Assembly: GCA_017856235.1 (NCBI GenBank)
Contig: JAFMFH010000010.1
Span: 1-38,718 of the forward strand
Direction: 5' to 3'
Length of the DNA: 38,718 bases
From: Flavobacteriaceae bacterium
GTDB lineage: Bacteria; Bacteroidota; Bacteroidia; Flavobacteriales; Flavobacteriaceae
This document shows, in pieces, positions 8,911 to 38,718 of this stretch. The translations under genes were made by a program, and so were the position numbers. Under the pieces are notes generated by a model that did not search any database, was not told the origin of the DNA, and worked only from the letters and a program-made list of their open reading frames with translations. Positions within the stretch are counted from its first letter, which is position 1. Each line of letters begins with the position of its first letter.

Positions 8911-10577
8911 AAAATTGGACAAAAATTGATCAACCCACCGTTGCCGAAGTTAATTCTCTTCAAGCAGACCTAAATATTCCAAACTTTATTTGCTCTCTGT
9001 TACTTCAACGTGGGATTAATTCCTTAGATAAGGCCAAATTTTTTTTCAGACCTGAATTAGATTCTCTTCATGACCCATATCTAATGAAGGATATGGAAAA
9101 AGCTATAGTTAGAATTAATAATGCTTCAAGTGAAAAAATTATGATTTTAGGAGATTATGATGTTGACGGAACCACTTCAACATCTATGTTATATACCTAT
9201 TTCAGTTACAGGAATTATGACCTGTTATATTACATACCAGACAGATATAAAGAAGGATATGGGGTGTCGATGGAATCAATTGATTATGCTAAAGACAATA
9301 ATATTAAATTAATAATAACTGTAGATTGTGGAATAAAAGCATTAAACCAAGTTGAATATGCCAATTCAAAAGGAATTGATATAATTATTTGTGATCATCA
9401 TTTACCCGACAATAAAATTCCCAATGCTTATGCTATTTTAAACCCTAAACAATTAGATTGTACTTATCCATTTAAAGATCTATGTGGTTGTGCAATAGCA
9501 TATAAATTAATAACAGCACACAATTTAAAATCAGAAAATAAATTAAATGTTAAAAGTCTTTTAGATTTTGTTGCACTAGCAACTGTTTCGGATATGATGC
9601 CTTTAATTGATGAAAACAGAGTTATGGTATTTCACGGATTAAAGGAAATTAATAATAATCCTAGATTAGGACTTAGAAACTTTTTGAAATCAAATAATAA
9701 TCAAGTCGATGAATCAAACATATCATTTAACATTGGGCCAAGAATTAATGCTGCAGGACGAATGAAAAACGGAAAAATTATTGTGGACCTTCTAGTTGAG
9801 GAAGATGCTAATAAGGTTATGTCTTTATCAAATGAAGTAGAATTTTTGAATTCAAAACGAAGGACTATAGAAAAAGATGTATTTGAAGATGTAGTTGAAA
9901 AAATTGACCAGAGTAAGTATTCTAATATTTTTTATGGTCAAAACTGGAGTACAGGTGTTTTAGGAATTGTTGCCTCAAGAGTTATTGAAAAATCATATAA
10001 GCCTACTATTATACTTACTGATTTTGATGAAAATCTACTTACAGGATCTGTGAGATCTGTGTCTGGATTTGATGTTTATGATGCATTGGTTAAATGTGAA
10101 AAATATTTATATCAATTTGGAGGTCATAAATTTGCGGCAGGATTAAAAATTGAAAAATCCAAACTAGATTTATTTAGTCAGAATTTTGAAAAAGTAGTCA
10201 AAGAATCAGTTGGTGGAATAATGTTTGAGAAAAATTATAAATATGACATTGAAATATCTTTTTCAGAAATAACAATTAATAATTTAAAAATCCTCTCAAG
10301 GATTGCTCCATTTGGCCTAGAAAATAGAAGACCAGTATTTAGAACCAACAATTGTACTATAACCGAGGATTTAAAATTTATAGGTAAAGAATCACAAATA
10401 GTAAAGTCAAAGATTCAGGATTCATTATTAAATAAACTCCCATTCATATGTTTTGATAAGAAAGATGAACTAGTTAATTTAAAATCAAAATTTGATATTC
10501 TTTATACAGTAGGGATAAATAAATATTCTGGTAAAGAAGAAATTGAAATAATAATAAAACAAATAGGTATAAAATAA
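8907..10577 (+). CDS. recJ: Single-stranded-DNA-specific exonuclease RecJ
   Basis: RecJ degrades single-stranded DNA 5' to 3' in recombination and mismatch or base excision repair. The 556-residue protein has the DHH phosphoesterase motifs in order: GDYDVDGTTSTSM, TVDCGIKA, CDHHLPD, ATVSDMMPL and GPRINAAGRM. The DHHA1 portion with FGGHKFAAGLKI follows, then a C-terminal OB-like part. The aspartates and histidines that bind Mn are in place. It starts in an ATGA overlap with rsmI and is followed immediately by a strong hairpin terminator, closing this operon. Confidence 0.96.
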   Translation: MKNWTKIDQPTVAEVNSLQADLNIPNFICSLLLQRGINSLDKAKFFFRPELDSLHDPYLMKDMEKAIVRINNASSEKIMILGDYDVDGTTSTSMLYTYFSYRNYDLLYYIPDRYKEGYGVSMESIDYAKDNNIKLIITVDCGIKALNQVEYANSKGIDIIICDHHLPDNKIPNAYAILNPKQLDCTYPFKDLCGCAIAYKLITAHNLKSENKLNVKSLLDFVALATVSDMMPLIDENRVMVFHGLKEINNNPRLGLRNFLKSNNNQVDESNISFNIGPRINAAGRMKNGKIIVDLLVEEDANKVMSLSNEVEFLNSKRRTIEKDVFEDVVEKIDQSKYSNIFYGQNWSTGVLGIVASRVIEKSYKPTIILTDFDENLLTGSVRSVSGFDVYDALVKCEKYLYQFGGHKFAAGLKIEKSKLDLFSQNFEKVVKESVGGIMFEKNYKYDIEISFSEITINNLKILSRIAPFGLENRRPVFRTNNCTITEDLKFIGKESQIVKSKIQDSLLNKLPFICFDKKDELVNLKSKFDILYTVGINKYSGKEEIEIIIKQIGIK

Positions 10578-10601
10578 AAAACCCTGCCTAAGCAGGGTTT
10601 T
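10578..10601. terminator. Bidirectional rho-independent terminator between recJ and a TonB receptor gene
   Basis: A 10-base perfect stem (AAAACCCTGC / GCAGGGTTTT) closes over a four-base CTAA loop. It is one base after the recJ stop and about 20 bases after the end of the converging receptor gene. The minus-strand copy continues in a longer T run, so it can end transcripts from both sides. Confidence 0.9.
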
Positions 10602-10621
10602 AATATTAATAATTTACTTTA

Positions 10622-13162
10622 TTAAAAATCAAAAGTAACACCTAAATTCCACGTTGTACCTCTTCCAAAATTTACCACATTTCTTACATCAACACCATTC
10701 CATGTTCTACCACCGTCAGCAAATATATTTGTATCTGACTCGGCAATATATTCCTCATCAAATAAGTTGTTAACGTTTAATCTTACTCTTGTATTCATAC
10801 CCAAGAATTTTGTTCTATAAGTTGCTCCTAAGTCAACTAAAGAATAACTAGGCAGGGTAATTGCACCTCTATTGTTAGCACTTGAGAACTCACTATCAAG
10901 CGGTCCAAATTCACCATATAAATTATCAAATGATTGCAGATCAACATCTACAGAAAAGTTATAGCTAAATCTATAATCAGCTCCTAAGTATAATATAGTT
11001 TGAGCATGATCACCAATACTAACACCATCCATATATAATGTTGCGGTTTGACCATTCGGCGCATTGTTATCTAAATTAAACCCTTGGCCAGTGAAGTTTT
11101 TAGTGTACTTATGATCACCTAAAGAAGCCATACCTTTAATTCTTAGTTGACTAGTTGGATACCATGTTAACTCAGCTTCAATTCCTTGATGAGTTTGCTC
11201 AACTCCCTCATAAACAAATCTCACAGCATTATCACCAGAGCCTGATACTCTGCTAAGCACTCTATTACCCCAAACTGTTGAATATGCATTAAGATTTAAT
11301 TTAAAATTAGAAGATAGAAAACCATAACCTAGCTCAAAAGAGTTTATTGTTTGAGCATCTTGATTGTCAGCTTGTTGATAATCATAATCACCATTGATAA
11401 AGATATCATCAACAAGAGGAGATTTTTTAATCTTACCTATATTAGCATAAACGTTGGATCTTTCATTCAAGTTATAATTTGCACCAACTTTCAAATAGTT
11501 TCCATTTTTCTTAACGACTTCACCTTTTGTTTCAGGGGGAGCTGTATAAAAATGCTCCAGCCACATTCTAGATGTAGTTGTTCCAGCTTGAAGAACAGCC
11601 GAAAAATTTTCACTACCAACATATTCTACAAGCCCATTTAACCCAGTCCAATTGTTATACCCAATATAATATCTTTGAGTTCCATTTGGATCATCCATTC
11701 CTAGATTTTTAAACGGAGATGATTCATATGCAGTTGTAACAACATGACCCACTCTATCAAAATTTCCTGAAAAGACATAATTGTTGATAGTTGAAATATA
11801 ACCATCAAGACCAAGAAAATCACTTATCCCTCTTCTGTGATAAGCTTTATAAGATCTAAGATCAACACCTATTTCATATCTAAAGTTCTCACTGTCTAAC
11901 TTAAGTTTGGATATACCACCTAACCAGTTATGAGAGTTTGTGCTAAACCTTCTTACTTTAGTTCCAACATCCCACCTACTTGGTGTTTCACCATCTGTAT
12001 CATTATGATAACCAAGTTTCATTCCTGCAAAAGGACCTTTAGATGGGATATAAGCATTATTAACGTTTTGAGATACCACAGCATCCCAGTTAATTGTCAT
12101 ATCAGATCTTCTATAAGCATCCCCACCATCAGCAAGATGATCAGTCATAGATCTTTCAAATGAAGTAACATCATAATTTCTTCCTCTATCTCCAGTTCCT
12201 CCACCTCTTCCTGCAGATGCATAAAGTGATGTAGCAAGAGTTAAATTACTTGAAATTTCCCAGTCCCAGTTAAGAGTTGCTAATGGCTTATTGTAATAAT
12301 TTCTTAACATAGAAAATTCTTCTCCCTTGTATTCTCCATACACTTGGTTGTATTTTCTATAATCACCTCCTTGAGTAGGGCCATGATCAAGATAGTCTTC
12401 TAGCCATGGTGTATAATATGCTTGGTGATGCCACTGACCAGCTCCAATAACGGAAAGGTTAAACTCATGATCTCCTCCTCTAGGAGTATATCCAATTGAA
12501 AAAGCATAAGTAACACCTTCTCCCTGAGTTCCATTTCTCCATCCATCTCCTTGCCATAGACTTAACAAATAACTTGATGACCAACCAAGATCATTCACAC
12601 CTGTATTATGAGAAACTGTCATTTTTTGATAACCGTCATTACCCTGAAGAAGCTTTAAAGAAGAACCTGGTTGTAGTTCTGCTGCACGAGTATTAACTGA
12701 AACGGTTCCACCTGCAGATGGAGTAGCTAATGATGTTGAACCTAAACCTCTTTGAATTTGAATACTTGAAGTTAAATCAGATAAACCAGCCCAGTTTGAC
12801 CAATATACCCAGCCGTTTTCCATATCATTAACAGGTTGACCATTGATTACAACTGCGACATTATTCATCCCAAAACCTCTGAGTTTAAGTTCTCCATCTC
12901 CATATCCACCACCACTGTCAGGAGAAAAATATATTCCAGGAGTCTTTTTAAGAAATTCAGGAACCTCAAGATTACCACCTTTCAGCTCTATCTCAGCACC
13001 AGAGACTGTACTAAATGCAATTGGAGTTTCACGTTCCTTTGCTATATCAATTACTTTCGATGAAACTGTAACCTCAGCTAGTGCTATAGAGTCTAGAGCA
13101 GGTTCTTGAGAGTTTAAGTTAGCAGAGAAAATAATAATAAATAAGAAGATTAGTTTTTTCAT
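10622..13162 (-). CDS. TonB-dependent outer membrane receptor
   Basis: The 846-residue protein has a Sec signal (MKKLIFLFIIIFSANLNSQ, cleavage probably after the SANLNSQ region). A short TonB-box-like stretch (LAEVTVSS) is next. The plug domain includes KKTPGIYFSPDSG, LKLRGFGMNNVAVVINGQPV and the LGSTSLATPSAGGTVSVNTRA closing segment. The rest is a 22-strand-type barrel ending in the aromatic-terminated strand NLGVTFDF. No carboxypeptidase-like regulatory domain is seen at the N-terminus, unlike SusC proteins, and no SusD partner is adjacent, so it may import a siderophore, vitamin or other small ligand; the substrate is not readable. It follows pgi but has its own promoter-like box. Confidence 0.93.
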   Translation of the reverse strand: MKKLIFLFIIIFSANLNSQEPALDSIALAEVTVSSKVIDIAKERETPIAFSTVSGAEIELKGGNLEVPEFLKKTPGIYFSPDSGGGYGDGELKLRGFGMNNVAVVINGQPVNDMENGWVYWSNWAGLSDLTSSIQIQRGLGSTSLATPSAGGTVSVNTRAAELQPGSSLKLLQGNDGYQKMTVSHNTGVNDLGWSSSYLLSLWQGDGWRNGTQGEGVTYAFSIGYTPRGGDHEFNLSVIGAGQWHHQAYYTPWLEDYLDHGPTQGGDYRKYNQVYGEYKGEEFSMLRNYYNKPLATLNWDWEISSNLTLATSLYASAGRGGGTGDRGRNYDVTSFERSMTDHLADGGDAYRRSDMTINWDAVVSQNVNNAYIPSKGPFAGMKLGYHNDTDGETPSRWDVGTKVRRFSTNSHNWLGGISKLKLDSENFRYEIGVDLRSYKAYHRRGISDFLGLDGYISTINNYVFSGNFDRVGHVVTTAYESSPFKNLGMDDPNGTQRYYIGYNNWTGLNGLVEYVGSENFSAVLQAGTTTSRMWLEHFYTAPPETKGEVVKKNGNYLKVGANYNLNERSNVYANIGKIKKSPLVDDIFINGDYDYQQADNQDAQTINSFELGYGFLSSNFKLNLNAYSTVWGNRVLSRVSGSGDNAVRFVYEGVEQTHQGIEAELTWYPTSQLRIKGMASLGDHKYTKNFTGQGFNLDNNAPNGQTATLYMDGVSIGDHAQTILYLGADYRFSYNFSVDVDLQSFDNLYGEFGPLDSEFSSANNRGAITLPSYSLVDLGATYRTKFLGMNTRVRLNVNNLFDEEYIAESDTNIFADGGRTWNGVDVRNVVNFGRGTTWNLGVTFDF

Positions 13163-28313: not shown

Positions 28314-29258
28314 TCACTTGGTTAACAAAGGTAGTACAAAAAAAGATAGAGCTCCAAAAATTAAAGTTATAATTGCTTGGCATGACCAAGCTAACCAACC
28401 ATAAGTTAACCCAAGCTCTGTATTAATTCCAAAATTAACTAAGAATAAGGATATCGCAAGGGGGTAAACACCTAGCCCATGATTTGAAAGAGAAATACTA
28501 AATACACCAACAACAAATGCTGGAAAAATCAAACTAGAGTCTATGGCATTTAGCTCTGGAACTGAAAACTTGATCACCGAAAAAGCAAGTATATAACATG
28601 TCCAGATTAAGAATGAGGAAATAACAAATAAAATCATTTTTGATTTAAGCTTAGTTACTGATAATAACCCTTCTAAAATGGTATTAAAAAATCTTCTTAT
28701 TTTATTTATTTTTTTTATTAAAATAATTAAGACAATTATAAAAAGTAAGATTACTAGACCAATAAATCCAATATTTTCATTTATATATAATAAAACCTCA
28801 TCATCAAACAGTGATTCAATTATTAAATCATATTGAAGAATCGAAACAGATATTAATATTAATAAGGATATACAAACATCAACAACTCTCTCCGCAGCTA
28901 TAGTTCCAAGTGTTTTGCCTAAAGGAATATTATTGTAACTACTAAGGACAGAGGCTCTAACAAATTCACCTGATCTCGCAATAGCCATATTTGATGTATA
29001 ACACATAAATACGCTTGCAATACTAATTAATTTATTTGACCTATAACCTAATGAACGAGATAGTAGCTGCCACCTTAGCCCTCTTATCACATCTGCAGAT
29101 GCTCCTAATAGCATTGCCGCCAAGACAAACTCAATTTTAGCAGAACCTATATAGTTATATATTAAAGATCTTTCATCAGGGTTAGTGAATTCAAAAGTTA
29201 AATAAATAAAGAATAAACCAACTATTATAGGAATTAATATTTTAAGTCTTTTTTTCAA
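28314..29258 (-). CDS. YbhN/UPF0104 membrane protein (flippase-like domain)
   Basis: The 314-residue protein has seven or eight hydrophobic segments and fits the family named for the membrane part of lysylphosphatidylglycerol synthase (YbhN/UPF0104). Recognisable elements are GLRWQLLSRSLGY, AIARSGEFVRASVLSSYN, and SNHGLGVYPLAISLF near the end. Members are thought to move or build lipids, but the role of this stand-alone form is not known, and no aminoacyl-transfer domain is attached. It starts at TTG (29258) one base after the panC stop. In many flavobacteria panD would be expected between these two genes; it is not here. Confidence 0.88.
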   Translation of the reverse strand: MKKRLKILIPIIVGLFFIYLTFEFTNPDERSLIYNYIGSAKIEFVLAAMLLGASADVIRGLRWQLLSRSLGYRSNKLISIASVFMCYTSNMAIARSGEFVRASVLSSYNNIPLGKTLGTIAAERVVDVCISLLILISVSILQYDLIIESLFDDEVLLYINENIGFIGLVILLFIIVLIILIKKINKIRRFFNTILEGLLSVTKLKSKMILFVISSFLIWTCYILAFSVIKFSVPELNAIDSSLIFPAFVVGVFSISLSNHGLGVYPLAISLFLVNFGINTELGLTYGWLAWSCQAIITLIFGALSFFVLPLLTK

Positions 29259-29259
29259 G

Positions 29260-30081
29260 TTATTTAAGTGTCATATTGTCAATTATTCTTGTTTTGCCAA
29301 CCCAGCATGCAACAAAAATTCTATCACCTTCGTCTTTTAAAAAGCTACTATATTTTGACAAATTATCAATCTCAAAATACTCAAGTTGACAGTTTTTCAA
29401 ATTCTTTAAATCGTCTATTATATTATCAGGAATTTTGTAAATTTTGGTTTTTTTATAAATCTCCTTTACTTTTAGCATAAACTTATTTATTTGTCCGGCA
29501 ATTAATCTTTCTTCTTCAGTCATATTTTTATTTCTTGAGCTCATTGCTAACCCATCAGGTTCTCTTATTGTTTCGCATGATATTATATTAACATTTATGC
29601 TAAGTTTTTTGATCATTATTTTTATAATACTAAGTTGTTGGAAATCTTTTTCCCCAAAATAAGCATTATCAGGACTGAATATATTAAACAGTTTTTCAAC
29701 TATAGTAGCTACTCCATCAAAGTGTCCAGGCCTGAATTTACCCTCTAGAATTTTATCTAAATTATCTAAATCATATTTTTTAGAAATAACCTCTTGATAG
29801 AGATCTTTATCTGAGGGCGTGTAGATAAATATATCTTTATAATGTTTAAGCTTATCTAGGTCACGATCTAAATTTCTTGGATATTTCTTTAGGTCATTAA
29901 TATCATTAAATTGGGTTGGGTTTACATAAATTGAGACAATTATTTGATCATTTTCAATTAAAGCTCTATCGACAAGGGAAAGATGACCTTTATGAAGAGA
30001 TCCCATTGTAGGGATTAGTCCAACTAATTTACTTGAATCTAATGATTTTAAAAGCTCTTTATGGGATGAGAAAACCCTCAA
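29260..30081 (-). CDS. panC: Pantothenate synthetase
   Basis: PanC joins pantoate and beta-alanine using ATP in the route to coenzyme A. The 273-residue protein shows LVGLIPTMGSLHKGHLSLVD with the HIGH-type ATP site, SIYVNPTQFN, KYPRNLDRD, GHFDGVATIVEKLFNIF, AYFGEKDFQQL and REPDGLAMSSRNK with the KMSKS-type loop. The start must be TTG (30081), since the codon before it is TAA in frame. It heads the long minus-strand run towards lspA and is divergent from the glycosyltransferase gene. A near-consensus TAAATTTA box lies at 30093-30100, about 12 bases upstream of the start. Confidence 0.96.
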   Translation of the reverse strand: MRVFSSHKELLKSLDSSKLVGLIPTMGSLHKGHLSLVDRALIENDQIIVSIYVNPTQFNDINDLKKYPRNLDRDLDKLKHYKDIFIYTPSDKDLYQEVISKKYDLDNLDKILEGKFRPGHFDGVATIVEKLFNIFSPDNAYFGEKDFQQLSIIKIMIKKLSINVNIISCETIREPDGLAMSSRNKNMTEEERLIAGQINKFMLKVKEIYKKTKIYKIPDNIIDDLKNLKNCQLEYFEIDNLSKYSSFLKDEGDRIFVACWVGKTRIIDNMTLK

Positions 30082-30172: not shown

Positions 30173-30982
30173 TTGAAGTTACTGAAAGACAAAAAAATAC
30201 TAGTCATTTCATCAGAGGTTGTTCCTTACCTTCCACAAACAGAAAAAGCAGTTAATTCATTTACTGTGTCTAGGAAAATTAATAATAATGGAGGTATGAC
30301 GAGAATTTTTATGCCTAAATATGGAATTATTAACGATAGAAGGCACCAATTACATGAAGTTATAAGATTATCTGGCATGAATATGATTATTAATGATATA
30401 TATATGCCTCTAATAATTAAAGTAGCATCAATACCTAAAGAAAGAATGCAAGTTTACTTTATTGACAATGAGGATTACTTCAAAAGAAAAGATCTTTTAC
30501 TTGACAAAAACAAAAAATTATTAGAAAATAATGATGAGAGAATGATCTTTTTTACAAAAGGAGTAATTGAAACAGTAAAAAAGCTAAACTGGACTCCAGA
30601 CATTATTCACCTTCATGGATGGTTTGCTTCATTGTTCCCTATATATCTTAAAAAATTATATAATGATGATCCTGTTTTTGAAAAAAGTAAGATAGTTTCA
30701 TCATTATACTCAAAAGCTTTTGATGGAAGTTTATCTAAAAATTTAGCAAATAAAATTCAATTTGATGGAATAAATGATAATCTAGATTTAATCTCAACAC
30801 CAAATTTTAATTCATTGTCTGATTTAATGATTAAATTCTCAGATTCAGTAATTTTTTCATCTGATAATATTGAAAATGATTTAAAATCTTTTGTTAAAAA
30901 ATATTCAAAGGATTCACTTTCTTTTACAGATTCATCATCAGAAGAAAAATTAATGGATTTTTTATTAAAAAATATTGATTAA
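30173..30982 (+). CDS. Short glycogen/starch synthase-like glycosyltransferase (GT5 N-domain only)
   Basis: The 269-residue protein corresponds to the N-terminal half of a GT5 glycogen synthase: KILVISSEVVPYLPQTEKA, MTRIFMPKYGIIN, and DIIHLHGWFASLFPIYLKKL. In full GlgA (about 480 residues) a second Rossmann domain supplies much of the nucleotide-sugar site; here that half is absent and the protein ends after FLLKNID. Such short forms are common in flavobacteria near panC and DUF4270 genes, so I take it as a natural form, not a broken gene. Whether it transfers glucose is unknown. It starts at TTG (30173), with an in-frame TAG just upstream, and ends in a TAATG overlap with the lipoprotein gene. 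Confidence 0.85.
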   Translation: MKLLKDKKILVISSEVVPYLPQTEKAVNSFTVSRKINNNGGMTRIFMPKYGIINDRRHQLHEVIRLSGMNMIINDIYMPLIIKVASIPKERMQVYFIDNEDYFKRKDLLLDKNKKLLENNDERMIFFTKGVIETVKKLNWTPDIIHLHGWFASLFPIYLKKLYNDDPVFEKSKIVSSLYSKAFDGSLSKNLANKIQFDGINDNLDLISTPNFNSLSDLMIKFSDSVIFSSDNIENDLKSFVKKYSKDSLSFTDSSSEEKLMDFLLKNID

Positions 30983-32811
30983 TGTTTACAAAGAGAGTTA
31001 AGAAAATTCTTTTGAGCCTGCTGATTATATCTACTTCCTCTTGTAATAAGGACTATTATACTGTAGGTATAGAAATTTATGACAATCAGTTTGAAGACTT
31101 AAAGTCAAAATCATTTCCAGTATTTTCATACCAAGAGTATTTTGAAAAAGTTCAAACTAATTTAACTTCAAATGTCCATTTGGGGGTATATAATGATGAT
31201 TTTTTTGGACAAATAAATTCGAGTTTTATATCACAGCTTGATGTCTCCTCACTGCAATCATTTGGTGCCTTTTCTCAAGATCAAGAGAATGAAGGAAGCA
31301 CGGAAGATATAAGAGTAATTAATGAAGAAGAGCAAGTAACAGCCGTGTATTTAGATTTACCATTTTTTAATAATACTATCGACTCTGATAATGATGGGGT
31401 TATTGATCTTTATGATGCTGATCCTAACGACAGCTCAAGTGACTCTGATAATGATGGTCTATCGGATATTGTTGAGCTCCAATCTGGTACAAATCCCCTG
31501 AGTCAAGACACTGATAATGATGGTATTTTAGATCCTCAGGATACAGAAATAACTGGTTATAATCTTAATAGTCAAGTTTATGAAATTGATTCATTATTTG
31601 GAAATAGAAATGCAGAATTTAGACTCAAAGTTTATGAATTAACTTATTATTTAAATTCTTTAGATCCTTCTAACAATTTTGAATCTATCAAAGAGTATTT
31701 TTCTAATGATGATTTTTACGAAGAAGGTTTCTATGGTCGTGAATTTCATAACGATATTATAAGTCTTAATTTTGATGAAATTCCTGTTCTGTATTTTGAG
31801 GATGACCCTTTAACTGATGATGTAAATGAGCTAAATGAAGTTAACTATTTCGAGACTCCAAGAATAAGAGTTCCTCTTGAAAAGGAATTTTTTCAACGTG
31901 AAATATTAGATAAAGAAGGCACAGATGACCTCACTAATCAATTAAATTTTAATAATTATTTTAAAGGATTAATTATAAGGGCAGATAGTTTTTCAGATGA
32001 TTTATACATGTTATTAGACATTTTAAATGCAAGAATAGTAATTGAATATAGCTATAACTATTATAATGGTAATGGAACAGATGATGTTTTAGATGATGTT
32101 ATTGAGAGGAAGAAAAAGTCTACTGTAATACCTCTTGGAGGTGTTACTATAAATCTTTATAACCAAAACGGATATAATCAGGAAATTGTTAATGAAATAA
32201 ATTCCTCCGCTGAAAGTATACCTTCTAAAATGATTTATTTGAATGGAACTAAGTTTTTTTCAAAATTGAAACTATTCTCAGAAGATAATTCTATCTCACC
32301 TGATTTAAATACTCTTAAATCAAAGAATATTTTAGTTAATGAGGCTAACCTAATGTTGTATATTGATGAAAATATACATAGATCTAAATATGAATATTTA
32401 CCAAAAAGACTCTATTTATATTCATATGATGATGGAGAGCCAATAGAAGACTATCAAAAAGACTTCACAATTGATTACAATCAAGCTTCTGTAAATTCAA
32501 ATAAATATTATTACGGCGGATTACTTCAATATGATTCAAATAATAAGCCAATTGGATACAAATTTAATGTAACTAATCATGTTTCTAATATCATTATACA
32601 CGACTCTATTAACATAGATTTAGGATTAACACTTACATCTGATATTGAGAATAATTTTCTACGAAGCGGCTATCTTACTAGTTCTAAAAGACTAAGGATT
32701 CCTGATGCATCAGTATCCCTGCCTTTCCCAGTTGCTTTATTTGGATCAAATCCAAAACAACAAGATCTTTCTAAGAAGCTTAAATTAGAGATCTTATACA
32801 CTGAATATTAG
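30982..32811 (+). CDS. DUF4270 surface lipoprotein with calcium-binding-type repeats
   Basis: The 609-residue protein has a lipoprotein signal with C21 in STSSC, and then the DUF4270 pattern (FPVFSYQEYFEKVQTN, HLGVYNDDFFGQINSSF). Residues 134-190 hold three Asp-rich repeats of the form DSDNDGxxD, like thrombospondin type 3 or EF-like calcium loops. They interrupt the domain between AVYLDLPFFN and VYEIDSLFGN. The rest continues as DUF4270 to the C-terminus. The function of DUF4270 is unknown; an outer-membrane or surface location is inferred from the lipid anchor. It is coupled to the preceding glycosyltransferase gene by a TAATG junction. Confidence 0.85.
   Translation: MFTKRVKKILLSLLIISTSSCNKDYYTVGIEIYDNQFEDLKSKSFPVFSYQEYFEKVQTNLTSNVHLGVYNDDFFGQINSSFISQLDVSSLQSFGAFSQDQENEGSTEDIRVINEEEQVTAVYLDLPFFNNTIDSDNDGVIDLYDADPNDSSSDSDNDGLSDIVELQSGTNPLSQDTDNDGILDPQDTEITGYNLNSQVYEIDSLFGNRNAEFRLKVYELTYYLNSLDPSNNFESIKEYFSNDDFYEEGFYGREFHNDIISLNFDEIPVLYFEDDPLTDDVNELNEVNYFETPRIRVPLEKEFFQREILDKEGTDDLTNQLNFNNYFKGLIIRADSFSDDLYMLLDILNARIVIEYSYNYYNGNGTDDVLDDVIERKKKSTVIPLGGVTINLYNQNGYNQEIVNEINSSAESIPSKMIYLNGTKFFSKLKLFSEDNSISPDLNTLKSKNILVNEANLMLYIDENIHRSKYEYLPKRLYLYSYDDGEPIEDYQKDFTIDYNQASVNSNKYYYGGLLQYDSNNKPIGYKFNVTNHVSNIIIHDSINIDLGLTLTSDIENNFLRSGYLTSSKRLRIPDASVSLPFPVALFGSNPKQQDLSKKLKLEILYTEY
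31381..31551 (+). repeat. Three in-frame calcium-loop-type repeats
   Basis: Repeat units start at 31381, 31441 and 31507 and encode DSDNDG, DSDNDG and DTDNDG cores. The first two share 17 bases at a 60-base spacing. They form an inserted module inside the DUF4270 lipoprotein. Confidence 0.85.
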
Positions 32812-32912: not shown

Positions 32913-32955
32913 AGAAAAATCTATTAATATTAAAATCTAATCAGAAAAATCTATT
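32913..32955. repeat. 13-base direct repeat in the DUF4270-etfA intergenic gap
   Basis: AGAAAAATCTATT occurs at 32913-32925 and 32943-32955; the second copy includes the etfA stop region. The whole 139-base gap (32812-32950) is A/T-rich and I see no GC-stemmed hairpin in it. The repeat may be chance. Confidence 0.35.
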
Positions 32956-33901
32956 TTCTTGCTTTTAGCTTGTTGATTAATTCAGGAATAATATCAAAAG
33001 CATCACCAACAACGCCATAATCTGCAGCCTTAAAAAATGGAGCTTCAGGATCACTATTAATTACCACTTTCACTTTTGATGAGTTTATTCCTGCAAGATG
33101 TTGAATTGCACCAGATATTCCAATGGCAATATACAGATTTGATGCAACAGGCTTTCCGGTTTGTCCTACATGCTCACTATGCGGTCTCCACCCCATATCA
33201 GAAACTGGTTTTGAGCATGCTGTTGCAGCTCCAAGAACTTCTGCTAATTCTTCAATCATATGCCAATGTTCAGGCCCTTTAAGACCCCTTCCAGCAGATA
33301 CTACAATATCTGCATCTGCTATTGTCACTTTAGCGCTTTGTTTCTCAACATTTGATACCTTAAATGTAGAACTTACTTCATTGTAATCTATATTCTCTAT
33401 AACTCCATCTCCATTATTCTCATTAATCTCGTATGAATTTGATGAGATACTTATGATTTTTAAATTGCCATTAATTTCTGTAGTAGAGAATGCTTTATTT
33501 GTGAAACAACTTCTTCTTACAATAAATGGATTTAAACTTTCTGGAAGTGCAACAACATTAGATATATATGAAGAATCAGTAATTCCTGCTAGATAGGCAC
33601 CAAGATACTTTGCATCTGCAGATGAAGAAAGTATTACTACTGAAATATTTTCTTTTTCAATAACTTGAGATAACACATGTGAGTATGTCTTGGCAGTAAA
33701 ATCCTTTAGGTTACTACTTTCAACATTAACTATTTTGTCTGCTCCATATTTATTTAATAATTCTATATCAGAACAATTAAAGCTTACACATATAAGTTTA
33801 GATCCTAATTCTTGCGATAGAGCTTTTCCATATGATGCAGTCTCAAATGATGACTTTTTTAATTTACCGTTTTCAGATTCTGAGTATACTAATACTGACA
33901 T
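32951..33901 (-). CDS. etfA: Electron transfer flavoprotein, alpha subunit
   Basis: EtfA and EtfB form a soluble FAD protein that collects electrons from acyl-CoA and other dehydrogenases and passes them to the quinone pool. The 316-residue protein has the C-terminal FAD-binding region with SAGRGLKGPEHW, VSDMGWRPHSEHVGQTGK and LYIAIGISGAIQHLAG, then INSDPEAPFFKAADYGVVGD. The N-terminal domain (about 1-180) is the usual less-conserved half. It follows etfB by 4 bases. The gene pair is complete. Confidence 0.96.
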   Translation of the reverse strand: MSVLVYSESENGKLKKSSFETASYGKALSQELGSKLICVSFNCSDIELLNKYGADKIVNVESSNLKDFTAKTYSHVLSQVIEKENISVVILSSSADAKYLGAYLAGITDSSYISNVVALPESLNPFIVRRSCFTNKAFSTTEINGNLKIISISSNSYEINENNGDGVIENIDYNEVSSTFKVSNVEKQSAKVTIADADIVVSAGRGLKGPEHWHMIEELAEVLGAATACSKPVSDMGWRPHSEHVGQTGKPVASNLYIAIGISGAIQHLAGINSSKVKVVINSDPEAPFFKAADYGVVGDAFDIIPELINKLKARK

Positions 33902-33905
33902 ATTT

Positions 33906-34652
33906 CTAAATTACTTTTGCTTCATTTTCTAGTAAATCAATCAACTTATCAAGTTCATCAGGTTTTACCAATTTAACTTCACCTTTTTCCTTAGGTTTAA
34001 AGAACTTTTTATCATTAGCCCTACTATTTATGTTTTGAGCTTTAATTACATCTAATGGTTTTTGACGAGCCATCATGATACCTCTCATATTAGGAATAAT
34101 TAGATCACTCTCCTCAACTAATCCTTTTTGAGCACCAATAACTAGAGGAAGATCACATTCACTAAATTCTGTTCCACCAGATATTTCCCTCGCACATTTT
34201 GCCTTTCCGGATTCAATTTCAAGACTCACGCAATTGGTGATAAAGTTATAATCTAAACAACCAGCTATCAGACCTGGAACTAGACCACCATTATAGTCTA
34301 TTGATTCTCTACCACATATTATAATATCGTATTTAATACTCTCACAATGAGCAACAATTTCTTTAGCAACAGAATAAGCATCTTTTGCCTCACAATCAAT
34401 TCTTATTGCTTTATCAGCTCCAATTGCAAGACATTTTCTTAAGATAGTATCTGCAGAGGAATCACCTACAGTAAGGACAGTAACTGATGCTTTATTGGAG
34501 TCTTTCATCCATACAGCTTTTGTTAAACCAAATTCATCATTTGGATTAATTATAAATTGAACTCCATTTTTATCAAATTTAGAGTCACTATCAGTAAAAT
34601 TAATTTTTGATGTAGTATCAGGAACATTACTTATACAAACTAATATATTCAT
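33906..34652 (-). CDS. etfB: Electron transfer flavoprotein, beta subunit
   Basis: Beta subunit of the electron transfer flavoprotein, which pairs with EtfA and binds AMP. The 248-residue protein begins MNILVCISNVPDTTSKINFT, typical for Bacteroidota EtfB, and has FIINPNDEFGLTKAV, ICGRESIDYNGGLVPGLIAG and the C-terminal anchor segment with RGIMMARQKPL. An alternative TTG at 34661 would overlap the stop of the HMG-CoA synthase gene; I prefer the ATG at 34652, 5 bases after that stop. It shares the operon with etfA and the HMG-CoA synthase gene. Confidence 0.95.
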   Translation of the reverse strand: MNILVCISNVPDTTSKINFTDSDSKFDKNGVQFIINPNDEFGLTKAVWMKDSNKASVTVLTVGDSSADTILRKCLAIGADKAIRIDCEAKDAYSVAKEIVAHCESIKYDIIICGRESIDYNGGLVPGLIAGCLDYNFITNCVSLEIESGKAKCAREISGGTEFSECDLPLVIGAQKGLVEESDLIIPNMRGIMMARQKPLDVIKAQNINSRANDKKFFKPKEKGEVKLVKPDELDKLIDLLENEAKVI

Positions 34653-34657
34653 ACTAA

Positions 34658-36100
34658 TCAATATTTTAAATAATTTCTAAGACCTTGAGTAAATTCTCCT
34701 TTATCAATATTCTTTAATTTGATAATTCCTCGATTGTTGTTAATATTAGAAGATATCTTTCTTCTGTGAAGTTTTTCATATATATCAATACTAATCTTTT
34801 TTCTAGAATCTAGATTTTGAAATAGTTTAATACTACTAACCTTATTCTTCCAATTAGTTTCTACAGTACCTTCAAAAATCTTTGCTTTAGAACCACTTCC
34901 GTAACTAATAAACCCAATCTTCTTATTAGTAAATTCATTATCATTTGATAATGCTTCAACTAATGAGCTAATCAGTGACATAAAAATTGAGGCAGTATAC
35001 ATATTTCCAATCTCAGAAGATGCCTTTTCGCCAGGAGCAATCTTCTGGTTAATAAAATTTTTATAAATACTAGATTTTGAAACTTTTTTAATCCAATCTT
35101 TATCTCCCTCAGACTTTGGAACACCTACCTCCGAGTAAATAAGCTCAGAATCTCCATTTTCTTCCATCCATTCTATCCATTTATCAGTAATCATTCTTCT
35201 ACCGTGGTATGCATATGGTAGATGAAAAATTATATTTTCCCATTCTTTTATAATATTTCTTTCATTTTGATTATTAAAATCTTCAATCGCTTCATAAACC
35301 CTTGCTTTATAACTCTCATTAGAAAACTGACCTTCAAAAATAGGCTCTTCTTTATAAACTTCGATAATATCATTTGTGTCAGACCAGAATTTTGACTGAG
35401 AATTTTCAAGTAAAACTTCCGCTTCTTCTTGGCTAACTTCTTTATTTAGAATTTTTGCTGCCTCTATTAAAATATTAGTTTTTTTATATTGTCTTCTAGG
35501 CTTAAAAAAGTCACCAATACCTTTTGTAGACACTCCCCATGAACCATTAAATGAAATAATGGATGGTTCTTCACAAATAAGCATTGATACTGAACCAGCA
35601 CCTTGAGTATATTCTCCAGTTGAGTTAAGTTCGTATTTCGCTATATCTGACGCTATCACAACTGCTTTTCTGTTGTCACCATTTCTAACCCAATCGCAAC
35701 AGTTTTGAAGTGCATCTACAGCTCCTGCACATGCAAATGTTAGGTCAACAATATCACAGTTCATAAAACATCTTTCCCCATATTTATCCTTAAAAACTTC
35801 TTCAAGTATTTCAACAACATACGATGATGTAGGTTTTGAGGAATCAACACCACTCTCTGTTCCTAAATATACTCTCCCTATATCTTTAGGATTAATATTA
35901 TTTTCAGAAATCAATCTAAAGAGTGAGTTTGCTGCAATGGATGCAGAATCTTCGTCATAATCAGGAGTTGCCATTTTCTTTAGACCTAATCCATTTACGA
36001 GTTTTTCAGCGGAGATATTTCTTTTCTTGGCCAATTCCTCTATATCTACATAAAGAGATGGAACATAATATGATATAGAGTCAATACCTACTTTTTTCAT
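34658..36100 (-). CDS. Hydroxymethylglutaryl-CoA synthase family protein
   Basis: HMG-CoA synthase condenses acetyl-CoA with acetoacetyl-CoA, the first committed step of the mevalonate route to isoprenoids. With ATG at 36100 the protein has 480 residues and begins MKKVGIDSISYYVPSLY. The catalytic triad positions are recognisable: Glu in YLGTESGVDSSKP (E82), Cys in TFACAGAVDA (C124) and His in FHLPYAYHGRR (H293). It is about 90 residues longer than the S. aureus enzyme, with an insert around 200-285. The open frame reaches 36145, but that would place the start inside the promoter. etfB follows after 5 bases. No other mevalonate gene is in view, so a role in another thiolase-type condensation is possible. 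Confidence 0.88.
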   Translation of the reverse strand: MKKVGIDSISYYVPSLYVDIEELAKKRNISAEKLVNGLGLKKMATPDYDEDSASIAANSLFRLISENNINPKDIGRVYLGTESGVDSSKPTSSYVVEILEEVFKDKYGERCFMNCDIVDLTFACAGAVDALQNCCDWVRNGDNRKAVVIASDIAKYELNSTGEYTQGAGSVSMLICEEPSIISFNGSWGVSTKGIGDFFKPRRQYKKTNILIEAAKILNKEVSQEEAEVLLENSQSKFWSDTNDIIEVYKEEPIFEGQFSNESYKARVYEAIEDFNNQNERNIIKEWENIIFHLPYAYHGRRMITDKWIEWMEENGDSELIYSEVGVPKSEGDKDWIKKVSKSSIYKNFINQKIAPGEKASSEIGNMYTASIFMSLISSLVEALSNDNEFTNKKIGFISYGSGSKAKIFEGTVETNWKNKVSSIKLFQNLDSRKKISIDIYEKLHRRKISSNINNNRGIIKLKNIDKGEFTQGLRNYLKY

Positions 36101-36116
36101 TGCTAATGCTATGCTC

Positions 36117-36146
36117 CAAATATAGTTACATAAATGTTTATCCAAA
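36117..36146 (-). promoter_or_regulatory. Bacteroidota-type promoter for the HMG-CoA synthase-etfBA operon
   Basis: On the minus strand TTTG (36146-36143) is followed by an 18-base spacer and TATATTTG (36124-36117). This matches the -33 and -7 elements (TTG, 17-20 bases, TAnnTTTG) and is the best promoter in the window. Transcription would begin around 36110, leaving a leader of only about 10 bases before the ATG at 36100. The -33 element overlaps the T run of the adjacent terminator. Confidence 0.72.
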
Positions 36147-36147
36147 A

Positions 36148-36175
36148 AAAAAGAGCAACCAAAGTTGCTCTTTTT
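36148..36175 (-). terminator. Rho-independent terminator of the TonB receptor gene
   Basis: A 12-base stem (AAAAAGAGCAAC / GTTGCTCTTTTT) with a CAAA loop is followed on the minus strand by T residues. It lies about 20 bases after the stop of the receptor gene and just before the HMG-CoA synthase promoter. Confidence 0.9.
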
Positions 36176-36194: not shown

Positions 36195-38718
36195 TTAGAA
36201 GTTGAAAGTTACTTTACCAAGTACCCTTCTTCTAATTGTTGGAAAATTAGGGAATGTCTGATATGGTTTATCTGTAAGATTAGTAGCAGAGACATCAAGT
36301 CTAAAGTTTGGACTAAATCTATAACCTATACTTGCATCAATTAAATTTTTAGTTTCTACCATACCAGTCCAGAAAGCTTGAACTGATCTAAATTTATCAT
36401 CATGTTGGAATGATACTGAGAAATTAAAACCAGATAGAGGAGTATAATCAGCACCTATTCTATACTTCCACATTGGAGCATTCAAATACGATGAATTAAG
36501 TAAATCATCATCATTATCTTCTCCTGGAATCCACTCATTTTGACTTAACCATGAAGCATTTGCCCATAGTCTTAAATCAGTATTTGCAAAGTAATCTATA
36601 CTAAAATCACCTCCAAAGTGAGATCTTTTAGCATCTCCTTGATTAATATAACCAGCTGTTATATGAGTAATCCCATCTCCCTGAGGAACTCTATCAGACT
36701 CAACAGCACCTATAGCAGGAAATAGTGGACCTAACAGATCAACAAAACCTTGTCCTCCAGCTTGAAAGGCAGAATTTATTCCTCCTATTACTGGTGTAGC
36801 TTGTGCAGCTAGTGCAGCTGGAAGAGCAGCAGCAACAGCTGTAGCTACAGAAGGAGCAACGCCAGGAATACCAGTAGCAGGAATACCTAATGCAGCATAT
36901 TGAGCTGATACAGCAGCTGTTACACCAGCAGTTACGGCTGGAGTTAAAGCAGCATTTACATATGCAGTAGCATCAGCAGCAACAGCATTTCCTAGGTCTC
37001 CTGGTATATTTGAACCAACTAGTGCATAAGTATCACCAATTGTATTAAAGTTTATAAAACCAGTATTAACATATGAGTAAATATCAGCACTAATTCTAAG
37101 TTTTTTTCCAACAAACGAAGTAACTCCAAATTCAAAATTCTCTACTGAACTAAATCTTCCAGTTTTTGTATCTCTGTTACCGGTAGTAGATTGTGAAGGA
37201 TCAAAGAAATCATATGGTGATAAAATTCCTGATCCACCACTTGGCCCAGCATAACTAGCAAAAAAAGGAGTTAGTAATGGTTGTAAAGCAGGAACTTGTG
37301 CATACAAACCTGCAAGAGATGCACTTGCAACAAATCCATAAGGAATTGCCAATGGTAATCCACCAGCTGCAGCAGATACTGGAATATCAATTGGTATACC
37401 TGCAAGATCAATTACTTGATTTGATGGATCAGCAAATCGTTGAGGTGTACTCAGACCACTTAACCATCCACCAAGAACTCCAGGGGCTGCTGTAAAAACT
37501 GGGAAATCAATATACATTTGAAGTGCATTTGGACCAGACAAAGCTTTGTTATAAGCTAACCTCCAAGTAGTTGTTTCAGTGGGTTTATAAACAAGAGCAG
37601 CTCTAGGAGCAAATTCTCCAGTGCTTATAAAACTTGCCTGATCATATCTACCAGCTATTACTAAATCCATTTTATCTGAAAGGCTAAGAGTACCTTGACC
37701 GTAAAAACCATTAGTTATATAATCATCACTATCTTCATTTCTACCCCATAAAGTATATTCTGAGTCTGAGGCAGTATTTCTATAGTCATATCCTACTGTC
37801 CATTCTGAATCAAAAAGCCATGGCATATCAAAATTATACTGAATTTGTGCTTCAATACTTGTTCTCTTTGCAACCTGACGTAAACCTGTACCATACAAGA
37901 ATGTCGGGTTATCTTCTTTACCTCCGTCATTATGATCTATAAATGCTTGAGCATACCAATTACCCATTGTTGCTTGAACTTGTCCCCAATATGTACTACC
38001 ATCAGCATATGCAATACCAAGATCTTGAAAAAACAGACCACCACCATTACTCATTCCAGCACTAACCTGATAGTTAGTATAATCAGTTGGTCTCCATTCT
38101 AGAGTTGTGTCGAATGCAATATTGCTATAATCATCTATTAGGGCGTTTCCTCCACTAAAGTCATAAAGCACATCACCATTTACAGAAGCAACTGGATCAA
38201 CCATCATGTCTTTAATAACAGGCTGTCTAATTACACTGTTAATTCCACCAATTTTAGGTGCTAATTCTGCTTCATTATCATATGTAAAATCATTACCAGA
38301 ATTAATTCTACCGTTAATTTTCCATCCGAATGTATCATTATCATTTGCTCTAGCAATTCTAAATTCAGAACCAATAGTGTTTAATTCTCCTGCCCAAACA
38401 GAAGCAGAATTACCTTCGTAGTCGATTGGACTTTTACTTCTGAAGTGAACTACACCAGAAACTACACCAGGTCCGTATAAGACTCCCGCTGCACCTCTAA
38501 CAACCTCAACAGAAGCAAGATCTAAATTAGATAGTCCTTGTTGGAAACTAAAGAAAGTACTAGCAGCTGGAGTTATTAAACCTCTGTTATCTCTCAATAC
38601 ATATGTAGATGTACCAAATGCTCCTGATCCAGCTCTCATTTCTAGATTCAAAGAGTTAGCAGTTTGTTGTTGTATTTGAACACCTGGAACAGACACAAGA
38701 ACTCTAGTTGGCTCTGCT
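36195..38718 (-). CDS. TonB-dependent receptor with Ala-rich insert (5' end outside window)
   Basis: The frame is open to the window edge, so the signal peptide and the first part of the plug are missing; at least 840 residues are seen. A GTG at 38696 is internal, because the codons before it (VL preceded by PTR) continue plug sequence. The plug is clear: SVPGVQIQQQTANSLNLEMR, STYVLRDNRGLITPAAST, LASVEVVRGAAGVLYGPGVVSGVVHF. The barrel ends in NFRLDVSATNLTDKPYQ and a final VTFNF. The middle holds two long low-complexity, Ala/Pro/Gly-rich segments (about 400-500 and 568-638 from the GTG). Plug residues resemble a group of marine flavobacterial receptors; the substrate is unknown. It has its own terminator. 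Confidence 0.92.
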   Translation of the reverse strand, partial: AEPTRVLVSVPGVQIQQQTANSLNLEMRAGSGAFGTSTYVLRDNRGLITPAASTFFSFQQGLSNLDLASVEVVRGAAGVLYGPGVVSGVVHFRSKSPIDYEGNSASVWAGELNTIGSEFRIARANDNDTFGWKINGRINSGNDFTYDNEAELAPKIGGINSVIRQPVIKDMMVDPVASVNGDVLYDFSGGNALIDDYSNIAFDTTLEWRPTDYTNYQVSAGMSNGGGLFFQDLGIAYADGSTYWGQVQATMGNWYAQAFIDHNDGGKEDNPTFLYGTGLRQVAKRTSIEAQIQYNFDMPWLFDSEWTVGYDYRNTASDSEYTLWGRNEDSDDYITNGFYGQGTLSLSDKMDLVIAGRYDQASFISTGEFAPRAALVYKPTETTTWRLAYNKALSGPNALQMYIDFPVFTAAPGVLGGWLSGLSTPQRFADPSNQVIDLAGIPIDIPVSAAAGGLPLAIPYGFVASASLAGLYAQVPALQPLLTPFFASYAGPSGGSGILSPYDFFDPSQSTTGNRDTKTGRFSSVENFEFGVTSFVGKKLRISADIYSYVNTGFINFNTIGDTYALVGSNIPGDLGNAVAADATAYVNAALTPAVTAGVTAAVSAQYAALGIPATGIPGVAPSVATAVAAALPAALAAQATPVIGGINSAFQAGGQGFVDLLGPLFPAIGAVESDRVPQGDGITHITAGYINQGDAKRSHFGGDFSIDYFANTDLRLWANASWLSQNEWIPGEDNDDDLLNSSYLNAPMWKYRIGADYTPLSGFNFSVSFQHDDKFRSVQAFWTGMVETKNLIDASIGYRFSPNFRLDVSATNLTDKPYQTFPNFPTIRRRVLGKVTFNF
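36780..36990 (-). repeat. Alanine-rich low-complexity coding segment
   Basis: About 70 codons of the receptor gene encode mostly Ala with Val, Pro, Thr and Gly, in quasi-repeats such as TAGVTAAVSAQYAA and TAVAAALPAALAAQ. On the + strand it appears as repeated GCAGC/AGCAG runs, visibly richer in GC than its surroundings. Confidence 0.8.

Follow-up and report, generated by a model that had tools for sequence, protein, structure and literature searches.

A predicted alanine-rich surface hairpin with an exchangeable tip in a TonB-dependent receptor of marine Flavobacteriia

The window analysed here, a stretch of 38,718 nucleotides from a Flavobacteriaceae bacterium, ends in the gene for a TonB-dependent receptor (36195..38717, minus strand; 840 residues visible, with the N-terminal part past the contig end). 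An alanine-rich stretch of this receptor falls in a predicted helical hairpin of the extracellular loop L8, and comparison of related receptors showed that the tip of the hairpin is a hypervariable cassette that has been exchanged repeatedly against the gene tree, its types being mostly inherited.

Receptor identity and predicted structure

The stretch (36780–36990, minus strand) encodes residues 577–647 of the receptor. The run of about 70 Ala, Val, Pro and Thr codons described by the sequence-only reading is real—the 71 residues comprise 37% Ala, 13% Val, 10% Thr and 8% Pro, with a single charged residue—and has the highest Ala fraction (0.37) among the 10512 windows of 71 residues in the 31 open reading frames (ORFs; next ORF, 0.20; median, 0.04). 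It also ranks at the top of the 12 receptors detected in this genome, the other 11 of which peak at 0.07–0.15 Ala. A lack of charge is less distinctive: one 71-residue window of the receptor contains no charged residue, and ORF 28317–29270 has one with a single charged residue. GC content reaches 0.465–0.485 per 200 bases in the stretch, compared with 0.28–0.40 in other regions of the gene (up to 0.43 in one window of loop L7), confirming the jump in base composition noted earlier. However, codon usage in the rest of the gene predicts a GC content of 0.49 for the stretch, against 0.47 observed (GC3, 0.03), so that the jump is explained by Ala-rich amino-acid content encoded with native codon usage; an origin from foreign DNA, considered on the basis of GC, was thereby ruled out. 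The description 'quasi-repetitive' held only weakly at the DNA level, where three short imperfect arrays (scores 32–55) were found.

Both domains of a TonB-dependent receptor were recognized: the plug (PF07715, 27.1 bits; cut-off, 23.9) and the barrel (PF00593, 66.5 bits; cut-off, 27). These were the only matches in a Pfam scan at E values up to 1, in which the Toluene_X domain of the FadL family (PF03349) was absent from the receptor. Relatives in the genus carry about 142–154 extra N-terminal residues, as judged from stop-to-stop frames. The receptor reached none of the NCBIfam receptor families at the family's own cut-off; the best match was the TOL_0244 family (NF053590; cut-off, 645), with 50.8 bits for the truncated window protein and 76.5 bits for its full-length relative L047. 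Membership in SusC/RagA (TIGR04056) was rejected, given that the window protein had no match at E values up to 1 and L047 scored 84.3 bits against a cut-off of 368.25. Solved structures found by sequence show the receptor fold only; the window model superposes on BtuB (Z score, 28.2; r.m.s.d., 2.9 over 494 residues) and also on PirA, YncD, Cir and other receptors. An alignment search across the order at an E value of 1e-30, in which three candidates were scored per listed genome, gave four matches (including that of the window itself) in a sample of 296 genomes, suggesting that the receptor family is uncommon. No literature on this family was found among the open-literature titles and abstracts listed as matches.

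AlphaFold2 models of the window protein and L047, each built with 34 aligned sequences, had mean pLDDT values of 78.1 and 74.5, respectively. The structure alignments covered the window and 33 of the 37 loci (all except L048, L057, L059 and L064), three of these being partial. Both models contain a plug and a 22-strand barrel (counted manually, with fragments merged and short loop strands omitted). In the window protein, barrel strands 16–22 correspond to 36198..36668 (minus strand; residues 684–840), and the L8 hairpin, which joins strands 15 and 16 as counted back from the C terminus, to 36714..37007 (minus strand; residues 571–668), with helices at 571–609 and 623–668. The hairpin of L047 is formed by helices 710–745 and 765–801 and a short tip helix, and is predicted with confidence (pLDDT blocks, 81–94); that of the window is well predicted at its base (78–93) and poorly at residues 591–640 (44–58). 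Strand 16 of L047 is a single 27-residue strand (817–843), so that the count from the C terminus places L8 on the extracellular side of the models. Of the locations proposed from the sequence, barrel or extracellular loop, the strand count therefore favours extracellular loop L8 over the periplasm or barrel wall, and the models are consistent with the proposed helical surface cap, the stretch being predicted to belong to a helical excursion outside the cell. A second loop, L7 (37152..37535, minus strand; residues 395–522), is apolar and partly helical (447–488), a feature that the sequence-only reading had overlooked. Averaged over 33 receptors, charged residues make up 3.9% of the L8 hairpin and 1.4% of the helical part of L7, and about 23% of loops L2, L4 and L9.

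Cassette types and their exchange

Across the receptors compared, the base of the hairpin is conserved and the tip is variable. In the window, sequence comparison delimits the exchangeable cassette to 36786..36965 (minus strand; residues 585–644, approximately 60 residues). Trees and correlations were computed on 33 receptors, 18 of them from the genus; the tipless L022 and L023, the partial L037, L045, L048, L049, L059 and L064, and the frame-broken L021 and L057 were left out, and L002–L018 are copies of loci in the set or among those excluded. The receptor frame of L057:4581-7505 (in the two-contig genome G017, to which L021 also belongs) is broken in the L7–L8 part, reflecting either sequencing error or real inactivation. 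L048 is a contig of a metagenome-assembled genome (MAG) titled Dehalococcoidia that bears a flavobacterial receptor and genus-type upstream genes, and is likely to be misbinned. One MAG (SI034_bin14) contains the receptor locus twice, as L035 and L040; the two differ and represent either paralogues or mixed strains.

The segment between the conserved anchors that flank L8 spans 82–152 residues (L050, 152; L053, 150; L031, 141; window, 129; most genus members, 123), the value of 82 belonging to genomes G016 and G008 (L022 and L023). Between the hairpin bases, the cassette itself measures 34–82 residues in the 33 receptors, which we sorted into four types named here I–IV. Type I comprises 15 genus members, every one of length 54; type II (L031, L050, L053, L051, L061 and L065; 58–82 residues) carries a W-TGAPA-AL-PGSPAI motif; type III comprises L052, L054–L056 and L063 (39–54 residues); and type IV comprises L058, L060 and L062. 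L066 and L067 match no type. L019 has a short form that its tip assigns to III and the tip tree to I, and the window cassette, with type II arms and a shorter tip, is III by its tip and II by its arms (placement in the tip tree, support 85), so both labellings were counted. All 33 cassettes have at most 7.7% charged residues and an Ala fraction of 0.15–0.37. Insert length among homologues is thus not fixed, and the loop is variable as had been suspected, existing in several types exchanged against the gene tree. The idea of a repeat prone to length change fared poorly—the DNA repeats are weak and all 15 type I cassettes share one length—and repeat slippage as the main process was set aside.

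Exchange is most evident in pairs of close relatives. Compared in windows of 25 codons, L031 and L044 share 81–100% of their DNA elsewhere in the gene but 44–53% in four windows of the cassette core, and identity returns to 92–99% right past the cassette, giving sharp edges. In another lineage, L061 and L054 have 28–32% protein identity in the cassette core and 68–100% elsewhere. L050 and L053 show the opposite relation, retaining 76–88% identity in the windows of the type II tip, compared with 28–72% in most others (a few conserved windows reach 88%). Among the 18 genus members, local identity (60-residue windows) correlates with identity in the rest of the gene at ρ = 0.63–0.93 outside residues 561–680, and at 0.51, 0.33, 0.33 and 0.41 in the four windows over that region; across the full set of 33 the drop is small (0.69–0.75 in cassette windows versus 0.69–0.88 elsewhere). 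Loop L2 is on average more variable than the cassette in the genus (0.61 versus 0.69), yet tracks the tree.

Trees computed without L8 (33 rows) require nine type changes if the window is labelled III by its tip and eight if labelled II by its arms, the minimum possible being four. Shuffled labels gave means of 15.6–16.3 changes, and no shuffle out of 200 came down to the observed number; having far fewer changes than shuffled labels, the types appear to be mostly inherited, with repeated exchange. The gene trees without L8 reject type II as a single clade (p-AU = 3.75e-49, six rows) and a clade of the window with L031 (p-AU = 1.48e-17), and the cassette data reject a clade of L031, L044 and L035 (p-AU = 1.4e-4). 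A single clade of all genus cassettes is compatible with the cassette data (p-AU = 0.17), so that a cassette source outside the genus is no more than hinted at by the shared type II motif. For same-type pairs (14 pairs that share sequences), the pooled dN/dS of the cassette is 0.13, compared with 0.16 in L2, 0.11 in L7 and 0.06–0.09 in other parts; by this measure the cassette is under purifying selection within a type, and no positive selection was seen in it across these pairs.

A larger difference occurs at the same locus in G008 and G016, where the receptors (L085:4045-6852 and L086:5626-8433) have open frames, are 47% identical to the genus form and lack the L8 tip, and the flanking genes encode proteins 66–96% identical to those of genus members. 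Between G008 and L043, DNA identity of the receptor gene is 92–93% over about the first 50 residues, 81–87% to about residue 110 and 38–69% from there to the end, followed by a next gene with 95% identity. Alignment across this otherwise syntenic locus thus showed that plug and barrel differ wholesale in the two genomes. Taken with the cassette swaps, this difference points to receptor exchange at two nested scales, and loss of the tip in receptors with open frames suggests that it is dispensable for the fold.

Genomic locus and candidate ligand

Gene order around the receptor was compared across loci, and the ligase, dehydrogenase and electron transfer flavoprotein (ETF) genes are named from matches under NCBIfam cut-offs. 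Directly past the receptor stop codon is a terminator-like hairpin and T run (36143..36175, minus strand; by eye, unscored), which separates the receptor from an HMG-CoA synthase-like gene (34658..36100, minus strand; below the family cut-off, with the model matched in two pieces), followed by ETF beta subunit-like (33906..34661, minus strand) and alpha subunit-like (32951..33901, minus strand) genes, both below their families' cut-offs. In other loci, where the DNA extends far enough downstream of the receptor, these three genes recur. We dropped the notion that the HMG-CoA synthase neighbour is a paralogue dedicated to catabolism, since the genome has no other strong match (the next two score 33.0 and 28.8 bits) and the gene may simply serve isoprenoid synthesis. 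Beside the locus, window positions 30982-32811 encode a BamH-like lipoprotein (NF053686, 353.9 bits; cut-off, 420) with Asp-rich repeats that look thrombospondin-like by eye.

Past the contig break at 38717, the window's locus is likely to continue on contig C38 of this genome, judging from the genes at the beginning of that contig: a 163-residue frame (L102:1-489) that is 97% identical to the N terminus of the L047 receptor precedes genes for a ligase, an SDR and MaoC-like and acyl-CoA dehydrogenase-like proteins (93–96% identity). An AMP-binding acyl-CoA ligase-like gene, the best match of which is a long-chain-fatty-acid-CoA ligase (under that family's cut-off), lies upstream of the receptor in 24 of the 32 loci with upstream DNA (37 loci minus five that could not be judged for upstream genes). 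These 24 are 19 genus-type loci plus L058, L060, L062, L066 (in which one hydrolase gene separates ligase and receptor) and L067. Upstream genes of the 19 genus-type loci include MaoC-like (16), SDR (15) and acyl-CoA dehydrogenase-like (14) genes, three of the loci holding too little DNA to be judged fully. The last five loci encode receptors only 39–43% identical to that of the window and ligases 57–65% identical to that of L047; L066 and L067 also share the SDR (60%) and MaoC (52–53%) genes. As a separate observation, L058 encodes another TonB-dependent receptor (9511-11361), shorter than the long-loop one and downstream of it, with cluster mates in L060, L062 and L064. This gene-order comparison showed an association of the receptor with acyl-CoA-type genes resembling fatty-acid breakdown. 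The ligase gene was not near the receptor in eight of the 32 loci (L050–L052, L054, L055, L061, L063 and L065), so the link to lipids is not universal. FadL (PF03349) scored over the cut-off in none of 25 genus genomes, two of which have weak partial matches below it; given that most of these genomes are incomplete, the absence is provisional.

We consider it probable, with considerable doubt, that the apolar L8 hairpin and an L7 lid serve a lipid-like ligand and that the tip is diversified by recombination. The Ala-rich stretch would make up the distal portion of a long L8 hairpin, nearly devoid of charge, in a 22-strand TonB-dependent receptor, and L7 and L8 may together form an outer lid or vestibule above the plug. 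The receptor would import a fatty acid, acyl lipid, sterol or terpenoid carboxylate, a ligand class suggested by the conserved acyl-CoA-type catabolic locus and by the lack of FadL over the cut-off in the genus. Occasionally, homologous recombination within the conserved edges would substitute one hypervariable tip for another, a process that would keep the transporter and change the surface seen by phages, bacteriocins or alternative ligands. Sequence comparison shows the exchange of cassettes and the context of the locus, and the models predict the helical hairpin and its extracellular side; the lid, the ligand class and the selective agent (phage or ligand) we infer. We know of no ligand or phage for any member of the family.

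In FecA, the ligand-gated loops L7 and L8 are believed to close over a small polar chelate; the same two loops are long, apolar and helical here. FadL/OmpP1 long-chain fatty acid channels (PF03349) are not TonB-dependent and belong to a different barrel family, and they carry hydrophobic cargo, as proposed here. TonB receptors induced on phenanthrene have been described in a Sphingobium (PMC13273656). TbpA and TdfJ/ZnuD of Neisseria are TonB-dependent transporters with a helix finger that, like the predicted hairpin here, protrudes from an extracellular loop (PMC9426574); their helix is in L3, by metal-sensing clusters or touching host protein, whereas the receptor described here has a long apolar hairpin in L8.

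Alternative explanations and implications

A doubtful, although serious, alternative is that the cassette is purely a region for escape from phages or bacteriocins and that the apolar helices have no ligand role. Hypervariable regions with mosaic evolution have been described for Escherichia coli FhuA and other outer membrane proteins, a set that includes several known phage receptors (PMC12175518), and the pattern here matches them: as in FhuA-type mosaic regions and porins, the types are few, the edges sharp and the flanks conserved by purifying selection, recombination is local and—in the predicted models only—the position is extracellular. The apparent dispensability of the tip in the open-frame receptors of G008 and G016 also fits escape. 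However, low charge and high Ala are kept in 33 of 33 receptors despite varying length and sequence, which mere decoys would not need. The present case further differs from FhuA in its near-uncharged Ala-rich helical hairpin in L8, its occurrence in uncultured marine Flavobacteriia and the spread of related types over several lineages; for FhuA, positive selection is reported within types (PMC12175518), whereas none was seen in the 14 pairs here. It is unlikely, in our estimate, that the types instead set specificity, each tip suiting a different hydrophobic ligand or surface partner protein. Retention of the type II tip between L050 and L053 suggests a specific contact, of the kind made by the helical loops of TbpA and TdfJ (PMC9426574), but L031 and L044 are of different types and the rest of the receptor, including the plug, is nearly unchanged between them.

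Neutral drift with slippage of a tolerant low-complexity loop would account for the Ala-rich composition, the short imperfect repeats and the varying lengths of types II and III; the constant length of type I, the abrupt recovery of identity at both edges and the purifying selection within types make it highly improbable. It is scarcely credible that the cassette results from misassembly or misbinning, or that the segment belongs to the periplasm or the barrel: the window is one whole contig of a 58-contig draft with the gene cut at its end, but the frame is open, same-type cassettes recur in separate assemblies (the form in the window, short and with type II arms, occurred a single time) and the strand count places the segment outside.

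We thus favour the L8 hairpin and L7 lid with a lipid-like ligand and a recombining tip. A bolder reading, less likely than not, is that the receptor is a TonB-dependent lipid importer of streamlined pelagic Flavobacteriia without FadL, in which an uncharged L7/L8 lid might capture acyl lipids and feed the adjacent acyl-CoA degradation locus, with the tip and the whole plug–barrel unit swapped between species. If true, this would identify a candidate for active lipid transport through the outer membrane in ocean bacteria without a detected FadL, and cassette types could be counted in metagenomes to follow phage or ligand selection at the level of the receptor in uncultured populations.
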